Shown here piece after piece: positions 3-11,648 of a DNA stretch of 64,000 nucleotides. The stretch spans positions 1,450,979 to 1,514,978 of the forward strand of contig CP089931.1 of the NCBI GenBank assembly GCA_021307325.1. The letters run 5' to 3'. Source of the DNA: Peptoniphilus sp. GNH (GTDB lineage: Bacteria; Bacillota; Clostridia; Tissierellales; Peptoniphilaceae). Below the pieces are notes generated by a model that did no database searches, was not told where the DNA came from, and worked only from the letters and a program-made list of their open reading frames with translations. Positions within the stretch are counted from its first letter, which is position 1. Each line of letters begins with the position of its first letter. The translations under genes were made by a program, and so were the position numbers.

Positions 3-3000
3 AAGATCCTCGGTGATGGAGGACTTGTTGCCTTGGGAGGCACAGGTCATAGTGGCGAAGGTGGATATGCAGTTTGTGGAAAAGGAACAATTTCTAGCAA
101 GGTTGCATATTTAAGAGCGGGCAATGGAAGTGATGTTAGTCCGGCAAAAGAAGATGGCGTAAAGATCACCAAAAATGTCATAGGAAAGGTTGAAGATGGC
201 AAAAAGGGCAGTGGCAAAATTGCTGAAGAGTATCCTGAATTCTGGGGACACAGTTCAGTGCCTAAAAAGCTAGATGACAATAAGATTGGAAAAGAGCTCA
301 TAAACCCATCGGGTGAAGAAGGCTTAAAGGGTGAACAAGCACCTGTTTTTGAAGATGCAAAACCGGGTCAAAGAATAAAAAGGGTTGAGTTTAAAACAAA
401 TAGATTCCACCAAAAATCAATTCAAGTAGCAGAAAAAAGTGATGATTCCAAAGATTGGATAAAGAAGCTTGCAAATAAAGAGGGCCTTGTATCCATTGGG
501 TCTGAAAAAATTGAAATGCTAGATCAAGAGGTAGAAGGACAAAAAGGCTACAAGGTTGATAGAAGCTTTTTATACATCTATGGTCTAAATGTAGGTGATA
601 AGGTTGATATAACGGTTGATGGCTATGTGCCGGTAAGTCTAAAGGCAGTTGCAAGCGAAGGTGTAAAAAACAAGTATAGGCTTGAAAAATTTTCTAAAGA
701 ACCGGAAGAAAAGCCTTACATGCCTGAAGAAGAAGTAGACACAACCGATGCCAATGTAGCAAGGGCAAAAGAATATATAAAAAATCTAACCTTTGATGAA
801 AATGCCTTAAAGCAAAACGGAGTTAACACGGACAGAAATTCATCAACTATAAATGAATTGCTTGAAAGCTTGAAAAAGGCAAAAGAACTTGCCTCTAAGG
901 AAAATCTCAGTCAGGATGAAAAGAAGAATTTGGTTTTGATTTATAAAAATAAATTTGAAAACAAGACCAAAAACATTCGTATCGATATGGCCTTGGAAGA
1001 TGCAAAAGTCGTTACCAATAGACACGACAACAAGAGGCTCCATGCCAAAATCAAAAATGGCAAGGTGACTTATTTATCTAAATTGGCATCTATATCCAAG
1101 GATGCCTATCCAAAACTCACAGTTTATAGAATTGACAAGAAGGACTACGAAACAGATGCCGTAACAGGAGTGACTCCTAAATTTGAAAAGAATGAGTTGG
1201 ATGGCCAATACTATGACATCAAAAATGTCAAACCAGAAATTCAAGTAAGAAGTGCTCAAAGTAGCAAGTATGAAATAAGCTTCAAAGAAGCAGAAATAAA
1301 AAGAGACTTTCCAAATACTCAATTGCTAAAAATTGTATTTTCGGTAAAACTAGCAGAAGATATTTTCGTAAAAAGTGAGGACTACGTATTTTTGAGCGAT
1401 GTAAAGGCCGATGAAAAAGAAGATAGCAATGACAATATTGTAAGTGAACAAGATCCGATAAAAGAAAATAATAAAGACCCTAAAGAAAAGAAGGAGCAAA
1501 ATAAAGGCCACTATGAATACAGAAGCACGAGAAAACTTGTACCGGTAAAGGTAAAAAGCTCCCAAAACTCTGTAGCCAAGTCTTATATCGAAGGATATTC
1601 AGACGGGCTTTTTAGACCTAATTTTGCAGTTACAAGAGCAGAAGCTGCTCAAATGATTTTAAAATTGCAAAAGGCATCAGCATCTAAGACCAAGTTAGAC
1701 TTTGATGATGTAAAAGATGCTTGGTATGGCGAGGCTCTTAACTATACCTATTCAAAGGGCATGATTCTTGCAAAAGATGGCAAACTAAGACCGGATGATA
1801 AGATGACAAGAGCAGAATTTGCCAGGATGATTTTCCCACTTCTACCGCAAAAATCGACAGAGCAAACATTCACAGATATAAGAGGCCATGAGTTTGAAGA
1901 AGCCATATTAAGAGCTGCTGCAAATGGCATTGTAAAGGGTTATCCTGACAAGACCTTCAGACCAGATGGCAAAGTTACAAGAGCAGAAGCTGTTGCTATG
2001 CTAAATCGCCTTTATAAAAAGACTTTGACAACAGATGAAATCGAAAAAAATATGTTCAAGCTAAAGACCTTTGAAGACGTAAAAAAATCTCATTGGGCAT
2101 ATAAAGAAATTATGTCTGCCATGAACTATGAGCTTGTAAAATCTGTTAAAGATGATAGCTACACATACGAAATGAGATATGAAGAGGTATGGGACAAGGT
2201 ATGGGTAGAAGATTCTGTAAAAGAAGAAAAGAAACCAGAAGCAAAGAAGGAATTTCTAAATAAAACTTTGACAGATGAAAATGCGAAAATAACTTTAGAA
2301 GGCAAACTGTCCAAGGATGCCAAGCTTGAAATAAAAGATAAGAGTGAAATAAAAGATGGCAATGTGCAAATCACCGTCCCAGAAAGTATTTTAAGAGACT
2401 ACAAGAATTTAAAGGCAAAAGAAGGCAAGACCTATGAAATCATAAAGTCCTATGATGTGAAACTCATAGGAGATTATCAAGGAAAACTTCAAGTAAGTCT
2501 AGCTGTCGGTGATGAATATAATGGCAAAAATGCCCTTATAAAACACCTGTCAAAAGACGGACTAAAGAGCTATACAGATGTAGTAAAAGAAGGCAAAGTA
2601 AAAGTCGAAGTGGATGGCCTATCACCATTTGTTGTCATAATTGAAAAAGACAAGATAGACCAAGAAATGCTTGATTTGAAACTTGCCCTAAATAAAAAGC
2701 TTGAAGATGCAAAGGCAAAAGAGGAGCTCAAGTTTACTAAAAAGTCCTTCGACCTCCTTAAAAAGGAAATTGAAAAAGCTAAAGCTTTGAAAGACTCTAA
2801 AGACAAAGAAGCTATCAAAAAAGAAATAGCAAGCCTTGAAGGAGCAATAAATGGCTTACAAAAACTTGGTGATATAGAAGATTTACAGAAAAAATTAGAT
2901 GCCGCATGGGAAAAGACAAAAGACGAGTCCTATACACAAGAAAGTAGAGAAAACTTAAAAAGCTTCTTGGGAAAATTTGCAAACTATGATTTGGACAATG

Positions 3001-5459
3001 CAACTGAAGAAATTGTCGAAAAAGAATTAAAAGCAATCGCTGATGAAGTTGGAAAGCTTGTAAAAAAACCAGTGGATGTAGAAGTTGAACTTGAAATAGA
3101 CAAGACAAATGGAATAGTCGATCATGCAAAGGCAGTTATAGGAAAAACTTTTAAAGACGCTACAACTCCTTCTGGATCTTATAACTTTAAAGACCCAAGC
3201 ATAAGTGGCAAAACATTCCTAGGCTGGAAAATAAATGGAGAAGGACAAACTTTTACAAGCGAAAATCTAAAGAAGCAGACTCTTACAAAAGAAATGGTAA
3301 AGGAAGGCAAGATAAGATTACTTGCTCAATTTGAAACCATAACTCCACCAGCAGTAGAAAAAAAGGATGTTAAATTTACAAAAGATAAAAAGAATAAGGC
3401 AATAGCCATAGATGGAACTGACGCTGATACTCTTGCTTGGCTTTCAAATTTGAAGAATAAAAATGGTAGTGTCAGCAAGCATCCTAATGGAGAAAAACTG
3501 CCTATGGTTAGCCAAAACTCATATATACTTGGATATTATGTATTTTCTGGAAAATCATTAGGAATAGCGAATGCAAAAGCGGGTGATGTATTTAAGGTAG
3601 AGGTAGAAGGCTATAAGGACATCTTTTTGAAGGCAGAAAAATATAATTCAAGCTACCACTTGGTTCAAATAGATGATCCACAAGTACAAGAAGAATTGCT
3701 TGATTTGAAACGTGACCTAAATGAAAAGCTTGAAAATGCAGAGAAAAAAGATAAGCTCCAGTTCACTAAAAAATCCTTCGACATCCTTGAAAAGGAAATT
3801 GAAAAAGCTAAAGCTTTGAAAGATTCTAAAGACAAAGAAGCTATCAAAAAAGAAATAGCAAGCCTTGAAGGAGCAATAAATGGCTTACAAAAACTTGGCG
3901 ATATAGAAGCTTTACAGAAAAAATTAGAGGCCGCATGGGAAAAGACAAAAGACGAGTCCTATACACAAGAAAGTAGAGAAAACTTAAAAAGCTTCTTGGG
4001 AAAATTTGCAAACTATGATTTGGACAATGCAACTGAAGAAATTGTCGAAAAAGAATTAAAAGCAATCGCTGATGAAGTTGGAAAGCTTGTAAAAAAACCA
4101 GTGGATGTAGAAGTTGCACTTGAAATAGACAAGGCAAATGGAACCATCGATCAAGCAAGGGGAGTTATAGGAAAAACTTTCAAAGACGCTACAACTTCTT
4201 CTGGACAATATAAGTTTGAAGAACCAAGCATAAATGGCAAAAAATTCCTCGGCTGGAAAATAAATGGAGAAGGAGAAACTTTCACAAGCGAAAATCTAAA
4301 GAACCTGACCCTTAAAAAAGAAATGGTGAAGGAAGGCAAGATAAGATTACTTGCTCAATTTGAAAATGTAGCTCCACCAGCAGTAGAAAAAAAGGATGTT
4401 AAATTTACAAAAGATAAAAAGAATAAGGCAATAGCCATAGATGGAAATGACGGTGATACTCGTGCTTGGCTTTTAAAATTGAAGGAAAAAAATGGTAGTG
4501 TCAGCAAGTATCCTAGTGGAGAAAAGCTGGTTAAGGTTAGCCCACAATCATATGACTTAGGATATTATGTATATTCTGGAAGCTCATTAGGAATAGCGAA
4601 TGCAAAAGCGGGTGATGTATTCAAGGTAGAGGTAGAAGGCTATAAGGACATCTTTTTGAAGGTGGAAAAATATAATTCAAGCTACCACTTGGTTCAAATA
4701 GATAATCCACAAGCCCAAAAAGAAAATCCACCCAAACCCCAACTAAAAAAAGTTGTTTTTGAAGACTCGGATAATCGAAAAATAGTCTTAAAAAAAGATC
4801 ACGAAAACAGCGGAATTTGGCTAGATACTCTTAATACTAAGGGTAAGCTTGAAAAGCTACAAGCAAACACTTTTGTAGATTTTCCTAAAAGTAATATTAG
4901 TATTTACAACAAGAGCTCAAAAAAATCCTTGTCTATATTCAATTTGAAGAGCGGGGATATAGTAAAGGTATCTGTCGAAGGCTTTGAAGACGTCTACTTA
5001 CAAGCAGAACAAAACGGAGGCAGTTATAAATTAAAGCAGGTTAAAAATCCACAAGCAAGTGGAAACGAAGAAGACCCAGCTTCACAAGAACCTCAACTAA
5101 ATCAAAAACCTAAAATAGGTACCCCCTTTAATGGACAGCTAAATACTTTAAGCAATGAGTCGCCAGATGAAAATACTATAAAATGGTATAAAAAGCTTTA
5201 TGAAGCAGGCGAAGTTTTATTAAATGGAAATGCCATGAAAAAAATTGCAGAATTTGGATCGGAAACGGGTTACTATCTAAATCCACCAGACAAGGCAATT
5301 AGAATAAAATTCAAAAAACTGAGCAAGGATGATATAATCACACTCAGAGTGCCTGGTTGGGAAGATATTAGATTTAAAGTGGTAAACTTAATCTCTTATT
5401 CAGGTCCTACTGGAGAAAAAGAAGCTTCATTTAAAGAACTAAAACCGGGAGAAAATTAA
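3..5459 (+). CDS. Large SLH-domain surface protein (5' end cut by window edge)
   Basis: The reading frame is open from base 3 to the TAA at 5457-5459, so the TTG at 33 is not the start: the N-terminus, any signal peptide and the promoter lie outside the window. Three SLH motifs, which bind secondary wall polymer, sit in the middle of the visible part at about 1580-2030. They are followed by a degenerate fourth unit with HWAY near 2094 and an EEVW tail near 2180. A module of roughly 100 residues occurs five times (about 370-690, 3345-3680, 4383-4710, 4740-5050, 5095-5390). Each copy has a Trp, a 'GD.V.V.V.GY.D' core and a closing Tyr. It resembles the Clostridial DUF1533/Shr-type haemoglobin-interacting family, which is my inference. 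A 343-residue block (FIVAR-like helices, a Listeria-Bacteroides-type 'FLGWKING' repeat and one such module) is duplicated. It probably acts at the cell surface in host or matrix binding; the ligand is unknown. Confidence 0.85.
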   Translation, partial: KILGDGGLVALGGTGHSGEGGYAVCGKGTISSKVAYLRAGNGSDVSPAKEDGVKITKNVIGKVEDGKKGSGKIAEEYPEFWGHSSVPKKLDDNKIGKELINPSGEEGLKGEQAPVFEDAKPGQRIKRVEFKTNRFHQKSIQVAEKSDDSKDWIKKLANKEGLVSIGSEKIEMLDQEVEGQKGYKVDRSFLYIYGLNVGDKVDITVDGYVPVSLKAVASEGVKNKYRLEKFSKEPEEKPYMPEEEVDTTDANVARAKEYIKNLTFDENALKQNGVNTDRNSSTINELLESLKKAKELASKENLSQDEKKNLVLIYKNKFENKTKNIRIDMALEDAKVVTNRHDNKRLHAKIKNGKVTYLSKLASISKDAYPKLTVYRIDKKDYETDAVTGVTPKFEKNELDGQYYDIKNVKPEIQVRSAQSSKYEISFKEAEIKRDFPNTQLLKIVFSVKLAEDIFVKSEDYVFLSDVKADEKEDSNDNIVSEQDPIKENNKDPKEKKEQNKGHYEYRSTRKLVPVKVKSSQNSVAKSYIEGYSDGLFRPNFAVTRAEAAQMILKLQKASASKTKLDFDDVKDAWYGEALNYTYSKGMILAKDGKLRPDDKMTRAEFARMIFPLLPQKSTEQTFTDIRGHEFEEAILRAAANGIVKGYPDKTFRPDGKVTRAEAVAMLNRLYKKTLTTDEIEKNMFKLKTFEDVKKSHWAYKEIMSAMNYELVKSVKDDSYTYEMRYEEVWDKVWVEDSVKEEKKPEAKKEFLNKTLTDENAKITLEGKLSKDAKLEIKDKSEIKDGNVQITVPESILRDYKNLKAKEGKTYEIIKSYDVKLIGDYQGKLQVSLAVGDEYNGKNALIKHLSKDGLKSYTDVVKEGKVKVEVDGLSPFVVIIEKDKIDQEMLDLKLALNKKLEDAKAKEELKFTKKSFDLLKKEIEKAKALKDSKDKEAIKKEIASLEGAINGLQKLGDIEDLQKKLDAAWEKTKDESYTQESRENLKSFLGKFANYDLDNATEEIVEKELKAIADEVGKLVKKPVDVEVELEIDKTNGIVDHAKAVIGKTFKDATTPSGSYNFKDPSISGKTFLGWKINGEGQTFTSENLKKQTLTKEMVKEGKIRLLAQFETITPPAVEKKDVKFTKDKKNKAIAIDGTDADTLAWLSNLKNKNGSVSKHPNGEKLPMVSQNSYILGYYVFSGKSLGIANAKAGDVFKVEVEGYKDIFLKAEKYNSSYHLVQIDDPQVQEELLDLKRDLNEKLENAEKKDKLQFTKKSFDILEKEIEKAKALKDSKDKEAIKKEIASLEGAINGLQKLGDIEALQKKLEAAWEKTKDESYTQESRENLKSFLGKFANYDLDNATEEIVEKELKAIADEVGKLVKKPVDVEVALEIDKANGTIDQARGVIGKTFKDATTSSGQYKFEEPSINGKKFLGWKINGEGETFTSENLKNLTLKKEMVKEGKIRLLAQFENVAPPAVEKKDVKFTKDKKNKAIAIDGNDGDTRAWLLKLKEKNGSVSKYPSGEKLVKVSPQSYDLGYYVYSGSSLGIANAKAGDVFKVEVEGYKDIFLKVEKYNSSYHLVQIDNPQAQKENPPKPQLKKVVFEDSDNRKIVLKKDHENSGIWLDTLNTKGKLEKLQANTFVDFPKSNISIYNKSSKKSLSIFNLKSGDIVKVSVEGFEDVYLQAEQNGGSYKLKQVKNPQASGNEEDPASQEPQLNQKPKIGTPFNGQLNTLSNESPDENTIKWYKKLYEAGEVLLNGNAMKKIAEFGSETGYYLNPPDKAIRIKFKKLSKDDIITLRVPGWEDIRFKVVNLISYSGPTGEKEASFKELKPGEN
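2662..4719 (+). repeat. Two tandem 1029-bp in-frame repeats
   Basis: Copy one (2662-3690) and copy two (3691-4719) share the same order of segments with an exact 1029-base offset (343 codons); for example the 'cttgatttgaaac' motif lies near 2670 and 3699. Long stretches such as 2818-3090 versus 3847-4119 are nearly identical at DNA level, while the linkers have drifted, so the duplication is older than the repeats at 43572. Confidence 0.9.
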
Positions 5460-7410: not shown

Positions 7411-8241
7411 TTAATAAGCAAGTATTATTCCACCGTTGTCGCCATAGGCGGATGCTAAACCCTTGGAATGGATGATGTTTATTTTTTTGAAGCTACAATT
7501 TTCTTCTAATTTAGATTTTAAGAAGTTGGCCTTGTCTAGAGCATCTACATGAACTATGGAAAGTATTTTATCTTTTGTATTTGCGAGTTCTATGTGTTTG
7601 GCTATGGCTACAAGGGCTGACTTGAAGCCTCTTTTCATTTTAAAAAGTTCAATTTCGCCATCGTTGTCGGTCATGGCTGGTTTTATATTTAGCACGTTTA
7701 AGAGAAGACCTGTTGTTTTTTTGATTCTGCCATTTTTTAGAAGATTATCAAGAGATTCCAAAACAAAGAAGGTCTTCATTTCTTCTATATATTTATCAGC
7801 CAAGCGGACAATGCTATCAAAGTCTTTGCCTTCTTGTATTTTTTCGTGTAAAAAATACGCTAGGTTGCTTTCACCGGCTGAGGCGGATTTGGAATCAAAG
7901 ATGTGAATTTTTGCGTTTGGATATTTATCCTTGTATTCTTTGGCGCCTATTATGGCACTTTGATAGGTTCCGGAAAGTTTTTTTGAAATTGTTATACAAA
8001 ATATATCATCGCCCTTACGTGCGTCAAAGGCTTTAAAAAAGTCGTATGGAGATGGACAGGATGTTTTTATGGTTTCATCGCTTGCCTGCATACTATTTAT
8101 AAAGTCGTCAAAATCGAAGTTGTCATCGTCTATAAATTCCTTATCTTTGATGCTTATTTTAAAAGGAACATATTCAATTCCTAAGAGCTTGGCGTCTTCT
8201 TTTGTAAGATCGCAACATGAATCAGCTACTATAGATGGCAT
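7411..8241 (-). CDS. DegV family (FakB-type) fatty-acid-binding protein
   Basis: 276 residues. DegV/FakB proteins bind a fatty acid and present it to the FakA kinase for phosphorylation in Firmicutes. The hallmark N-terminus IVADSCCDLT and the ISKKLSGTYQSA motif near residue 85 are both present, and the length is typical. The ATG at 8241 has a strong aaggaggt 5 bases upstream. No fakA is in the window. It is transcribed in the same direction as the upstream fusion gene, 86 bases away, but a -10 box at 8282-8287 suggests its own promoter. The lipid specificity cannot be read from the sequence. Confidence 0.9.
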   Translation of the reverse strand: MPSIVADSCCDLTKEDAKLLGIEYVPFKISIKDKEFIDDDNFDFDDFINSMQASDETIKTSCPSPYDFFKAFDARKGDDIFCITISKKLSGTYQSAIIGAKEYKDKYPNAKIHIFDSKSASAGESNLAYFLHEKIQEGKDFDSIVRLADKYIEEMKTFFVLESLDNLLKNGRIKKTTGLLLNVLNIKPAMTDNDGEIELFKMKRGFKSALVAIAKHIELANTKDKILSIVHVDALDKANFLKSKLEENCSFKKINIIHSKGLASAYGDNGGIILAY

Positions 8242-8327: not shown

Positions 8328-10994
8328 TTAAAATTTGGCGGCCTGATTTTCTATCAGATCTTTTAGATTATTTGCAAGATTTTCTAAAATTTTTTGATCT
8401 TGACCTTCGACCATTACTCTGATTAAAGGTTCTGTACCGGAAGGTCTTATGACCAATCTGCCTTCGCCTTTCAAATCTTTTTCAAGTTTTTCTATGGCTG
8501 TTTTTATTTCTTCATCTTCCAAGACCTTGGTCATGTGTTCTTTTTTTACTCTAGCATTTACTAGAGCTTGGGGGTAGGAGGTCATGAGTTTGTTTAAGTC
8601 GGAGAGTTTTTGCTTGGTTTTAGACATGATATTTAATAGATACAGTCCGCTTGCCATTCCATCTCCGGTGGTGTTGTTTTCTAAAAATATTATGTGACCT
8701 GACTGTTCTCCGCCGAGGACATAGTCATTTTTTAGCATGTCTTCAAGCACATATCTATCGCCGACTTTGGATTTTAAAAGCTTAAGCTCCATAGAGTCGA
8801 CAAATTTATCAAGTCCTATATTGGTCATTATTGTGCCTACCAGACCGGAGTTTTTGAGCTTGTTTTCTTCTTTTAAATGCTTGGCAAATATTGCCAAGAG
8901 ATGATCTCCATCGACGGTATCGCCTTTTTCATCTATGGCGATTATCCTATCTGCATCTCCGTCAAAGGCAAATCCGCAGTCCAAATTTTCTTTTAGGACT
9001 AATTCTTTTATTAGGTTGGGATTGGTTGAGCCGCATTTGTCATTTATGTTTAGACCGCTTGGCTTGTCGTTTAAGGGATAGACTTTTGCCCCGAGGTCTT
9101 TTAGGATGTCCTCGCCGATTTTATAGAGGGCGCCGTTGCCGAAATCTAGGCCTATTTTTAGATTGGAAATATCGTGAGTTACGATTGATTTTAGGTAGTC
9201 GGAGTAGTCTTTTATTAAATATTTTCCGTCTGTGCAAGTGCCTATTTGTGCTCCTGTCATCTTTTCTTCTATGCCTTGAAGAATTAAATTTTCTATTTGT
9301 ATTTCATCTTCATCTGAGAGTTTGAATCCAGATGATGAAAATATTTTGATGCCATTGTACTCATAGGGATTGTGGGATGCAGAGATTACTATGCCGGCAG
9401 CGGCCTTTGTCTTTCTAACAAGATAGGCAACGCAAGGAGTGGGGCAGATGCCTAAAAGAACGGGATTAAATCCCATGCTCATAAGACCACTTGCAAGTGA
9501 AGATTCAAGCATATCGCCTGAAAGCCTAGTGTCTTTTCCGATTAGGATTTTTTTGTTTTCTTTTCCAAGAATTTTGCCAAGGGCCCTGCCCAATTTGTAA
9601 GCTAGCTCAGGTGTCAAATCATCTCCTGCCACACCTCTTATGCCGTCAGTTCCGAAAAGTTTTTTCATATATTTCTCCTTTATTATTTTTATGAGCAGAT
9701 TCTTATCATTCAAATCTGGATTATGTAAGACTATATTTTCCATATCTTTTAAGATAAGACTAAAAATTTTGCCGGGTTTGAAACCGAGTTCTATTAAATC
9801 TCTGCCATTTATTTTTAAAAATTTTTTTGAATTTAAAGTTTTTTCCTTCATGAGTTCTTCGACTCTAGCTCTTTTTTCTAAGATGTCATCGAAACCTCTT
9901 CCTTCACTTGAGGATTTTCTATCTGCAAGCAAGAGCTCATAAAGGGCAAGGACGAGGTCTTTGCCAAGTCGTCTTATTTGCCTTCTAAGTCCAGCATCTT
10001 TCATGAGATGGGGAAGGGTCATGTGATTTTCAATTAAAATTTTAGAGTTTTGAATTAATTTTTTTGGAGCTTTCAAGCTCTTTAGATTTTTTTCAAGACA
10101 GATTGCAGAAAGCTCTTCGTGACCGTAGTAGTGGGCGATGCCATCTTTAAAGCTTTGAGATGAAATTTTCCCCGTGTCATGAAAGAGGGCCGCAAATCGC
10201 AAATAATCAATTGGTGGAACTTGGTCTAAGACTGCAAGGCTATGAGAAAAGAGGTCCTTGTCGTGGTGGGGATTTTTTTGGTCAAAGTCCACCATGAGAT
10301 AGATGTCTTTTAAAATCACTTCCAAAATTTTTAAATCTTTCATTAGAATAAAGGCCCGAGAAGGCTTGTCAGCTAAAATCATTTTGTAAATTTCAGAAAA
10401 GATTCTCTCAGAAGAGAGTTTTTGCAGATTCCATCGATTTTTTATGATGGCATCAGCCAAGGTTTTTTCTATTTTAAAATCGTATTTAGCAGAAAAACGC
10501 ACTGCTCTTAAAATTCTTAAAAGATCTTCTTCGATTCTCTCATAAGGGTTGCCAACAGCTCTTATTATTTTATTCTTTAAATCTTCTCTGCCCAAATAGG
10601 GATCGAAAAGGTTTCCGTTAAGGTCTAGTGCCATAGCATTTATTGTGAAGTCTCGGCGAGCCAAATCATCTTCGAGCTTGGTAGATAGGATTACAGATGA
10701 GGGTCTTCGCATATCCTTATATGCCAAATCTTTTCTAAAGCTTGTGAGCTCTATTGTTTCAGAATTTTTTTTAAGAGTCAAGCTTCCGTAGCAGATGCCA
10801 TGGTCATAAATCTTTATGTTTTTAAATATTTTCTTGACTTCTAAAGGACTTGCTGAGGATGCGAGGTCTATGTCTGATGAGGGCCTTTTTAAAATCAAAT
10901 CTCTCACATAGCCGCCCACATAATAGGCTTCGAATCCATTAGCCTTCAAAGTTTTTATTATGTATTTTGAAAATTCACTGCCTAAGTCTTTCAT
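8328..10994 (-). CDS. CCA-adding enzyme fused in frame to phosphoglucosamine mutase GlmM
   Basis: One uninterrupted frame encodes two complete enzymes. Residues 1-442 are a CCA tRNA nucleotidyltransferase, which adds or repairs the tRNA 3' CCA. It shows YVGGYVRD, the DxD metal site in SSDIDLA, RRDFTINAMA, ERIEEDLLRILRAVRF and a C-terminal HD domain with HDTGK. Residues 443-888 are GlmM, which converts glucosamine-6-P to glucosamine-1-P for peptidoglycan. It shows KKLFGTDGIRG, the phosphoserine loop SASHNP, DGDADR, GEQSGH and RPSGTEP. Each half has its full usual length and there is no linker: the CCA part simply lacks a stop codon. GlmM's own ATG (9668) and Shine-Dalgarno are preserved, so free GlmM may also be made. 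I chose ATG 10994; a TTG at 11012 is in frame but overlaps the -10 box. Confidence 0.9.
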   Translation of the reverse strand: MKDLGSEFSKYIIKTLKANGFEAYYVGGYVRDLILKRPSSDIDLASSASPLEVKKIFKNIKIYDHGICYGSLTLKKNSETIELTSFRKDLAYKDMRRPSSVILSTKLEDDLARRDFTINAMALDLNGNLFDPYLGREDLKNKIIRAVGNPYERIEEDLLRILRAVRFSAKYDFKIEKTLADAIIKNRWNLQKLSSERIFSEIYKMILADKPSRAFILMKDLKILEVILKDIYLMVDFDQKNPHHDKDLFSHSLAVLDQVPPIDYLRFAALFHDTGKISSQSFKDGIAHYYGHEELSAICLEKNLKSLKAPKKLIQNSKILIENHMTLPHLMKDAGLRRQIRRLGKDLVLALYELLLADRKSSSEGRGFDDILEKRARVEELMKEKTLNSKKFLKINGRDLIELGFKPGKIFSLILKDMENIVLHNPDLNDKNLLIKIIKEKYMKKLFGTDGIRGVAGDDLTPELAYKLGRALGKILGKENKKILIGKDTRLSGDMLESSLASGLMSMGFNPVLLGICPTPCVAYLVRKTKAAAGIVISASHNPYEYNGIKIFSSSGFKLSDEDEIQIENLILQGIEEKMTGAQIGTCTDGKYLIKDYSDYLKSIVTHDISNLKIGLDFGNGALYKIGEDILKDLGAKVYPLNDKPSGLNINDKCGSTNPNLIKELVLKENLDCGFAFDGDADRIIAIDEKGDTVDGDHLLAIFAKHLKEENKLKNSGLVGTIMTNIGLDKFVDSMELKLLKSKVGDRYVLEDMLKNDYVLGGEQSGHIIFLENNTTGDGMASGLYLLNIMSKTKQKLSDLNKLMTSYPQALVNARVKKEHMTKVLEDEEIKTAIEKLEKDLKGEGRLVIRPSGTEPLIRVMVEGQDQKILENLANNLKDLIENQAAKF
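9666..9680 (-). promoter_or_regulatory. glmM: Internal Shine-Dalgarno and start codon for GlmM
   Basis: On the minus strand AAGGAG (9680-9675) precedes ATG (9668-9666) by six bases. Initiation here would give a normal 446-residue GlmM from within the fused frame. Confidence 0.65.
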
Positions 10995-11000
10995 AGCTAA

Positions 11001-11009
11001 ATTATAACA
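11001..11009 (-). promoter_or_regulatory. Extended -10 promoter of the CCA-GlmM gene
   Basis: TGTTATAAT on the minus strand is an extended -10. The expected start of transcription falls at or beside the A of the ATG at 10994, which would make the mRNA leaderless. Confidence 0.5.
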
Positions 11010-11041: not shown

Positions 11042-11050
11042 TGTTATAAT
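11042..11050 (+). promoter_or_regulatory. Extended -10 promoter of the lipoprotein gene
   Basis: TGTTATAAT lies 22 bases before the start codon; the Shine-Dalgarno TGGAGGT follows. It is divergent from an identical element at 11001-11009. Confidence 0.55.
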
Positions 11051-11072
11051 CAAAAGAAAATGGAGGTAATTT

Positions 11073-11648
11073 ATGAATAGAAAATTCGGCATACTTGTCT
11101 TAATTTGTTTATTGGTCCTTGTGGGCTGCAAGAAGAAAAATGATATAAAGACTCCCGACACAGCAGATAAGGCGGGTCAAACAGATCTTGCCAATGGAGG
11201 CGAAACAAAAGAAGAATCGGGTGATGGCAAAAATACAAATGCTAAAACTGATAATCAAGCAGAGGCAGAAGAGCCAGCAGAAAATGAAGAAACTGCTCCC
11301 CAAACAGAAGAGCCAAAGACGCCAAAAGAAACTTTAAAGGCCATGATGGATGCGTCTGATTATATATCAAGACTAAGAGTAAACCAAGAAAGTGATGGAA
11401 GTCTTACTCCGATTTTTATAGAAGACTACAAGGGCGACTTATCTTTAATTGAGTATACTTTGCCAAAGACTTTGGTTCCAAATCAAGAGTATCTGGTATT
11501 TTTAAAAGATGGTCAAGACGGAAAACTTGAGCCGACTGATCCAGTAAATTCTTATACGCAAATTGCCCAAGAGTCAGACTCGAGTGTCAAAATGGTGGAA
11601 GCTGCATTTAATAACTCTCAAAAGACTTCAAAAAGGATTAGTGACTAG
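11073..11648 (+). CDS. Small secreted lipoprotein of unknown function
   Basis: 191 residues. A positively charged start and hydrophobic stretch run into the lipobox L16-V17-G18-C19, so it should be lipid-anchored on the outer face of the membrane. Residues 20-90 are a low-complexity Glu/Ala/Lys/Thr linker. The folded part (about 90-191) contains one tryptophan-free, acidic domain that I do not recognise. It is followed 8 bases later by a secreted stalk-domain protein and probably shares its transcript. Confidence 0.8.
   Translation: MNRKFGILVLICLLVLVGCKKKNDIKTPDTADKAGQTDLANGGETKEESGDGKNTNAKTDNQAEAEEPAENEETAPQTEEPKTPKETLKAMMDASDYISRLRVNQESDGSLTPIFIEDYKGDLSLIEYTLPKTLVPNQEYLVFLKDGQDGKLEPTDPVNSYTQIAQESDSSVKMVEAAFNNSQKTSKRISD

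Follow-up and report, generated by a model that had tools for sequence, protein, structure and literature searches.

The genes for a CCA-adding enzyme and for the phosphoglucosamine mutase GlmM are joined into one open reading frame in Peptoniphilus sp. GNH (Table 1). As judged from sequence comparison, this fusion is real and rare, has evolved twice, and unites enzymes of unrelated pathways. Read from the sequence and its ORF, the frame comprises 888 codons plus a stop and runs uninterrupted from its ATG through two intact genes. There is no linker, residue 442 of the CCA part being followed by residue 443 of the GlmM part in the junction peptide LLIKIIKEKYMKKLFGTDG. The original prediction had described such a joining without stop or linker, and it is borne out: both sets of domains are intact, and a search of related genomes found similar fusions in three genomes of genus g5. 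The fused frame is the sole cca match and the sole glmM-grade match in the genome (a single contig of 1,859,441 bases), the other match being a phosphohexomutase of 557 amino acids with 31% identity. The prediction had also known of no earlier account of such a fusion, and none was found in the literature searched.

Table 1. Features at and around the cca-glmM fusion. Positions refer to the window, i.e. the whole 64-kb stretch of DNA analysed.
Feature	Position	Strand	Remarks
CCA-adding enzyme fused to GlmM, single ORF	8328..10994	-	no stop at the junction
Class II CCA-adding enzyme, aa 1-442	9669..10994	-	PF01743, PF12627, PF13735; motifs; structure model
GlmM phosphoglucosamine mutase, aa 443-888	8328..9668	-	own ATG at 9668; PF02878, PF02879, PF02880, PF00408; TIGR01455
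Internal Shine-Dalgarno AAGGAG within the CCA frame (Lys-Glu)	9675..9680	-	6 nt before GlmM ATG; dG -8.8
Extended -10 TGTTATAAT	11001..11009	-	ends 6 nt before CCA ATG, no Shine-Dalgarno; probable leaderless start
DegV-like gene (name presumed), downstream of and outside the fusion	7411..8241	-	own Shine-Dalgarno, TATAAT upstream

The CCA part matches CCA-enzyme models of Pfam and NCBIfam over residues 10-436, and its PolyA_pol head, RNA-binding domain and HD motif point to a class II tRNA nucleotidyltransferase. It carries the motifs GG..VRD...DxD, RRDFT.N, EDxLR..R..RF, ERxxxE and HD, and resembles the solved CCA enzymes 6ibp and 1miv. Its score of 274.6 bits lies under the PRK13299 equivalog cut-off of 290, and specificity (for C, C and A, or for A or CC only) can vary among relatives. 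Multidomain tRNA nucleotidyltransferases such as the A-adding enzyme of NCBIfam NF041569 (880 positions) likewise embed their nucleotidyltransferase core in a longer chain, but the match to that model is confined to the nucleotidyltransferase part, and what the fusion adds is GlmM. The 3′ CCA is encoded in all 29 distinct tRNA genes examined in the same genome (loci L182-L211). In bacteria with an encoded CCA, the CCA enzyme mainly repairs tRNA ends; this is therefore probably its main role here too, which weakens any link of the fusion to tRNA maturation.

The GlmM part, matched by Pfam and NCBIfam over residues 447-882, scores 539.6 bits against the cut-off of 447.6 for the GlmM equivalog TIGR01455 and bears the motifs ISASHNP, DGDADR, GEQSGH and RPSGTE. 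Its four-domain equivalog match, active-site serine, and metal, sugar and phosphate loops predict a complete GlmM. A structure model of the whole chain, made from 64 aligned sequences, has a mean pLDDT of 93 and a pTM of 0.61; each half is modelled confidently, their relative placement is not, and the combination of confident domains with this pTM suggests that the halves are independent of each other. The last CCA helix of the model stops at Tyr442, and GlmM starts immediately.

Searches with the fused protein covered 130 family genomes and, at the level of the order, 249 genomes with the family counted in; at well over 100 loci the DNA itself was read. In the family, 59 genomes representing 21 genera have the two genes side by side in the same order, as do 49 genomes from five further families. 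The usual state in the family is an unfused pair on the same strand, with a gap of at most 10 nt or a short overlap (49 of the 59; 25 of these 49 overlap), whereas the five further families usually show >50 nt between the genes. A true single frame is confined to four genomes, namely Peptoniphilus sp. GNH and three of the six species of genus g5 (G046, G047 and G048). Of the three unfused g5 species, two have an ATGA overlap and one has its stop one base ahead of the ATG; with either ending, a shift in the CCA frame brings the ATG into frame. No further fusion was seen among the order genomes whose loci were read as DNA, nor in wider samples of the class and phylum, where fusions that are distant or have long linkers could escape the thresholds used; the named genome collection that was searched contained no fused relative. 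Merged frames of about 918-966 amino acids around GlmM in many order genomes are not fusions, a stop following cca in those read as DNA.

Two independent fusions are needed to account for these four genomes. A tree of the concatenated CCA and GlmM sequences groups the three g5 fusions in one clade (SH-aLRT 96) and places Peptoniphilus sp. GNH far from it. A single origin, with all four genomes in one clade, was rejected (AU test, p = 3e-8, obtained by a quick method and with a long GNH branch). The CCA tails and junctions differ between the two origins. Since G046 and G048 share 56% identity, the g5 fusion is old.

GlmM has kept its own start signals inside the fused frame, the ATG and the AAGGAG that the original prediction had pointed out, with a spacer of 6 nt. 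Among the ORFs of the window, on which these statistics are based, only four of 361 internal in-frame ATGs, GlmM's included, have upstream anti-Shine-Dalgarno pairing this strong, and the codon choice AAG GAG is made in 14 of 220 Lys-Glu pairs. A strong Shine-Dalgarno and ATG for GlmM are retained in all four fusions and thus in both origins (dG -8.8 to -10.2). The g5 version, GGAGG, is common to both branches of that genus and, with the ATG, has been kept across 56% protein identity, though the flanking CCA tail has changed. Unfused pairs already carry such a Shine-Dalgarno, so that no new event is required for it in g5.

At its other end, the CCA(-GlmM) message is probably leaderless, as the position of the extended -10 element would place the transcript start at about the CCA ATG. 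A similar layout precedes cca in several genera of the family, both in the g5 fusions and in unfused orthologues (for example those of g2 and g33). The window has 8 cases of TATAAT near an ATG where 5.9 are expected, so this alone is not unusual; by pattern counts, however, the extended -10 form numbers 22 in the genome against 10 for a reversed control, and it is this excess, together with the recurrence in orthologues, that supports the leaderless reading. A TATAAT is also present on the opposite strand near this promoter (11045-11062, +), ahead of a small lipoprotein-like gene (11073-11648, +), so that two divergent promoters lie within about 50 bases.

We consider it likely that the fusion arose by near-neutral loss of the stop between two old neighbours and that the locus makes both a fused protein and free GlmM. 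On this account, an old gene pair, cca followed by glmM, would have lost its intervening stop codon; comparison with relatives suggests that in the GNH lineage the stop disappeared along with the old intergenic ribosome-binding site, leaving the last CCA codon abutting the GlmM ATG, which the AAGGAG just upstream, within the CCA tail, would now serve. Ribosomes starting at the CCA ATG would run through to give the 888-residue CCA-GlmM, both domains of which would fold and work independently, and others would begin at the internal start to give an ordinary 446-residue GlmM. These two products from one mRNA are, as originally predicted, the most likely output, given the start signals kept in every fusion. 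Because the CCA start lacks a Shine-Dalgarno and the GlmM start is led by one, free GlmM would be expected to form the larger pool. The join itself would be nearly neutral, with no selection for a link between the pathways.

This account can be set against one in which only the 888-residue bifunctional enzyme is made and the internal Shine-Dalgarno and ATG are unused relics, a reading we regard as unlikely but worth some weight. Internal starts can go unused even with a Shine-Dalgarno, the g5 junctions can fold over theirs (-8 to -12 kcal/mol in a 60-nt window), and termination-reinitiation, an aid to overlapping downstream genes (PMC10666635), is impossible once the stop is lost. The long retention of the g5 fusion, over a large divergence, also fits this reading and may mean that the joining is useful. 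Such relics would nevertheless have to include a Shine-Dalgarno among the strongest at internal ATGs and a GGAGG that outlived changes in its surrounding tail, and the amounts needed of the two enzymes probably differ. The original prediction went further in tying tRNA maturation to wall synthesis. Tethering might couple tRNA repair to synthesis of the UDP-GlcNAc precursor, through co-localisation or common regulation for example, and two origins and persistence in one genus could be cited in its favour. That proposal is not upheld and seems to us quite improbable: only four of the 59 adjacent pairs in the family are fused, junction and linker are unlike between the origins, the tRNA genes already encode CCA, and we know of no substrate or partner shared by the two enzymes. 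Two origins are, moreover, unsurprising where dozens of lineages have the pair a few bases apart. Slightly less probable still is a bifunctional protein under selection, linking the supply of UDP-GlcNAc to tRNA-end repair and thereby to the capacity for translation, with the same message also yielding free GlmM.

Two further readings concern the junction itself. An assembly or sequencing error might have removed the stop in the GNH genome, the one genome of its genus compared. In relatives of genus g4, cca ends in AAAGAAAAATATAGGAGTTAATATG (...KEKYRS*) before the GlmM ATG; at the same site GNH has AAGGAGAAATATATG, in which ...KEKY is directly followed by M and continues as MKKLFGTDG. The CCA tail is thus homologous to that of relatives and in frame as far as the last residue before the GlmM ATG, which makes a hidden frameshift unlikely. 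A single homopolymer slip cannot yield this junction; next to a correct GlmM N-terminus, the error would have to be a precise multi-base deletion, and with an analogous fusion in three other genomes the join is not the peculiarity of one assembly. We therefore hold an error to be highly improbable. Separate proteins might also arise by another route, if ribosomes stall or the chain is cleaved where the two parts meet; no point in support of this was found, a linker and a recognised cleavage site are absent, and in the model GlmM follows straight on from the CCA helix, so that this appears the least probable reading of all. Near-neutral stop loss with two products remains the reading that we prefer, although its deletion step in GNH is reconstructed by comparison with relatives that share only 55-59% identity in GlmM.

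The CCA-GlmM fusion is a new pair for a known type of event, the stop-loss fusion of adjacent genes. In Helicobacter and Wolinella, rpoB and rpoC are fused (Zakharova et al. 1998, 1999, as cited in PMC9696931). As far as the citing article conveys, these too are neighbouring housekeeping genes in one frame, and the 1999 paper refers in its title to both fused and overlapping forms among related bacteria, a parallel to cca-glmM. RpoB and RpoC are, however, subunits of one complex, whereas the pathways of the CCA enzyme and GlmM are unrelated, and the retained GlmM start signal sets CCA-GlmM further apart from what is cited there. Overlapping gene pairs coupled by termination-reinitiation (PMC10666635) resemble the unfused cca-glmM pairs of relatives, most of which overlap or lie at most 10 nt apart, the state from which the fusion arises; in the fusion itself this coupling cannot occur, as there is no stop. 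A stop between enzymes of unrelated pathways can thus vanish while the downstream start survives, by which a free copy of one partner may persist. The fused and unfused sister species of genus g5 offer a natural comparison of whether internal initiation replaces termination-reinitiation after fusion. For annotation, a single gene name given to such a frame would mask either a cell-wall or a tRNA enzyme.

The gene that follows the fusion is one that we take, from its sequence, to be DegV-like, and a similar gene start lies downstream of the g5 fusions. In other Gram-positive bacteria, glmM is found in the setting cdaA-cdaR-glmM. Peptoniphilus sp. GNH shares with these the GlmM equivalog and also has cdaA together with a YbbR/CdaR-like gene (at 484 kb, locus L181), but glmM does not adjoin them and is joined to cca instead. 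An interaction of DacA with GlmM has been described in Staphylococcus (PMC6368335). Elsewhere in the window, a protein of 1808 amino acids (33-5459, +) contains two long, near-identical internal segments (about 2815-3129 and 3844-4158). The protein also has what appear to be SLH repeats.
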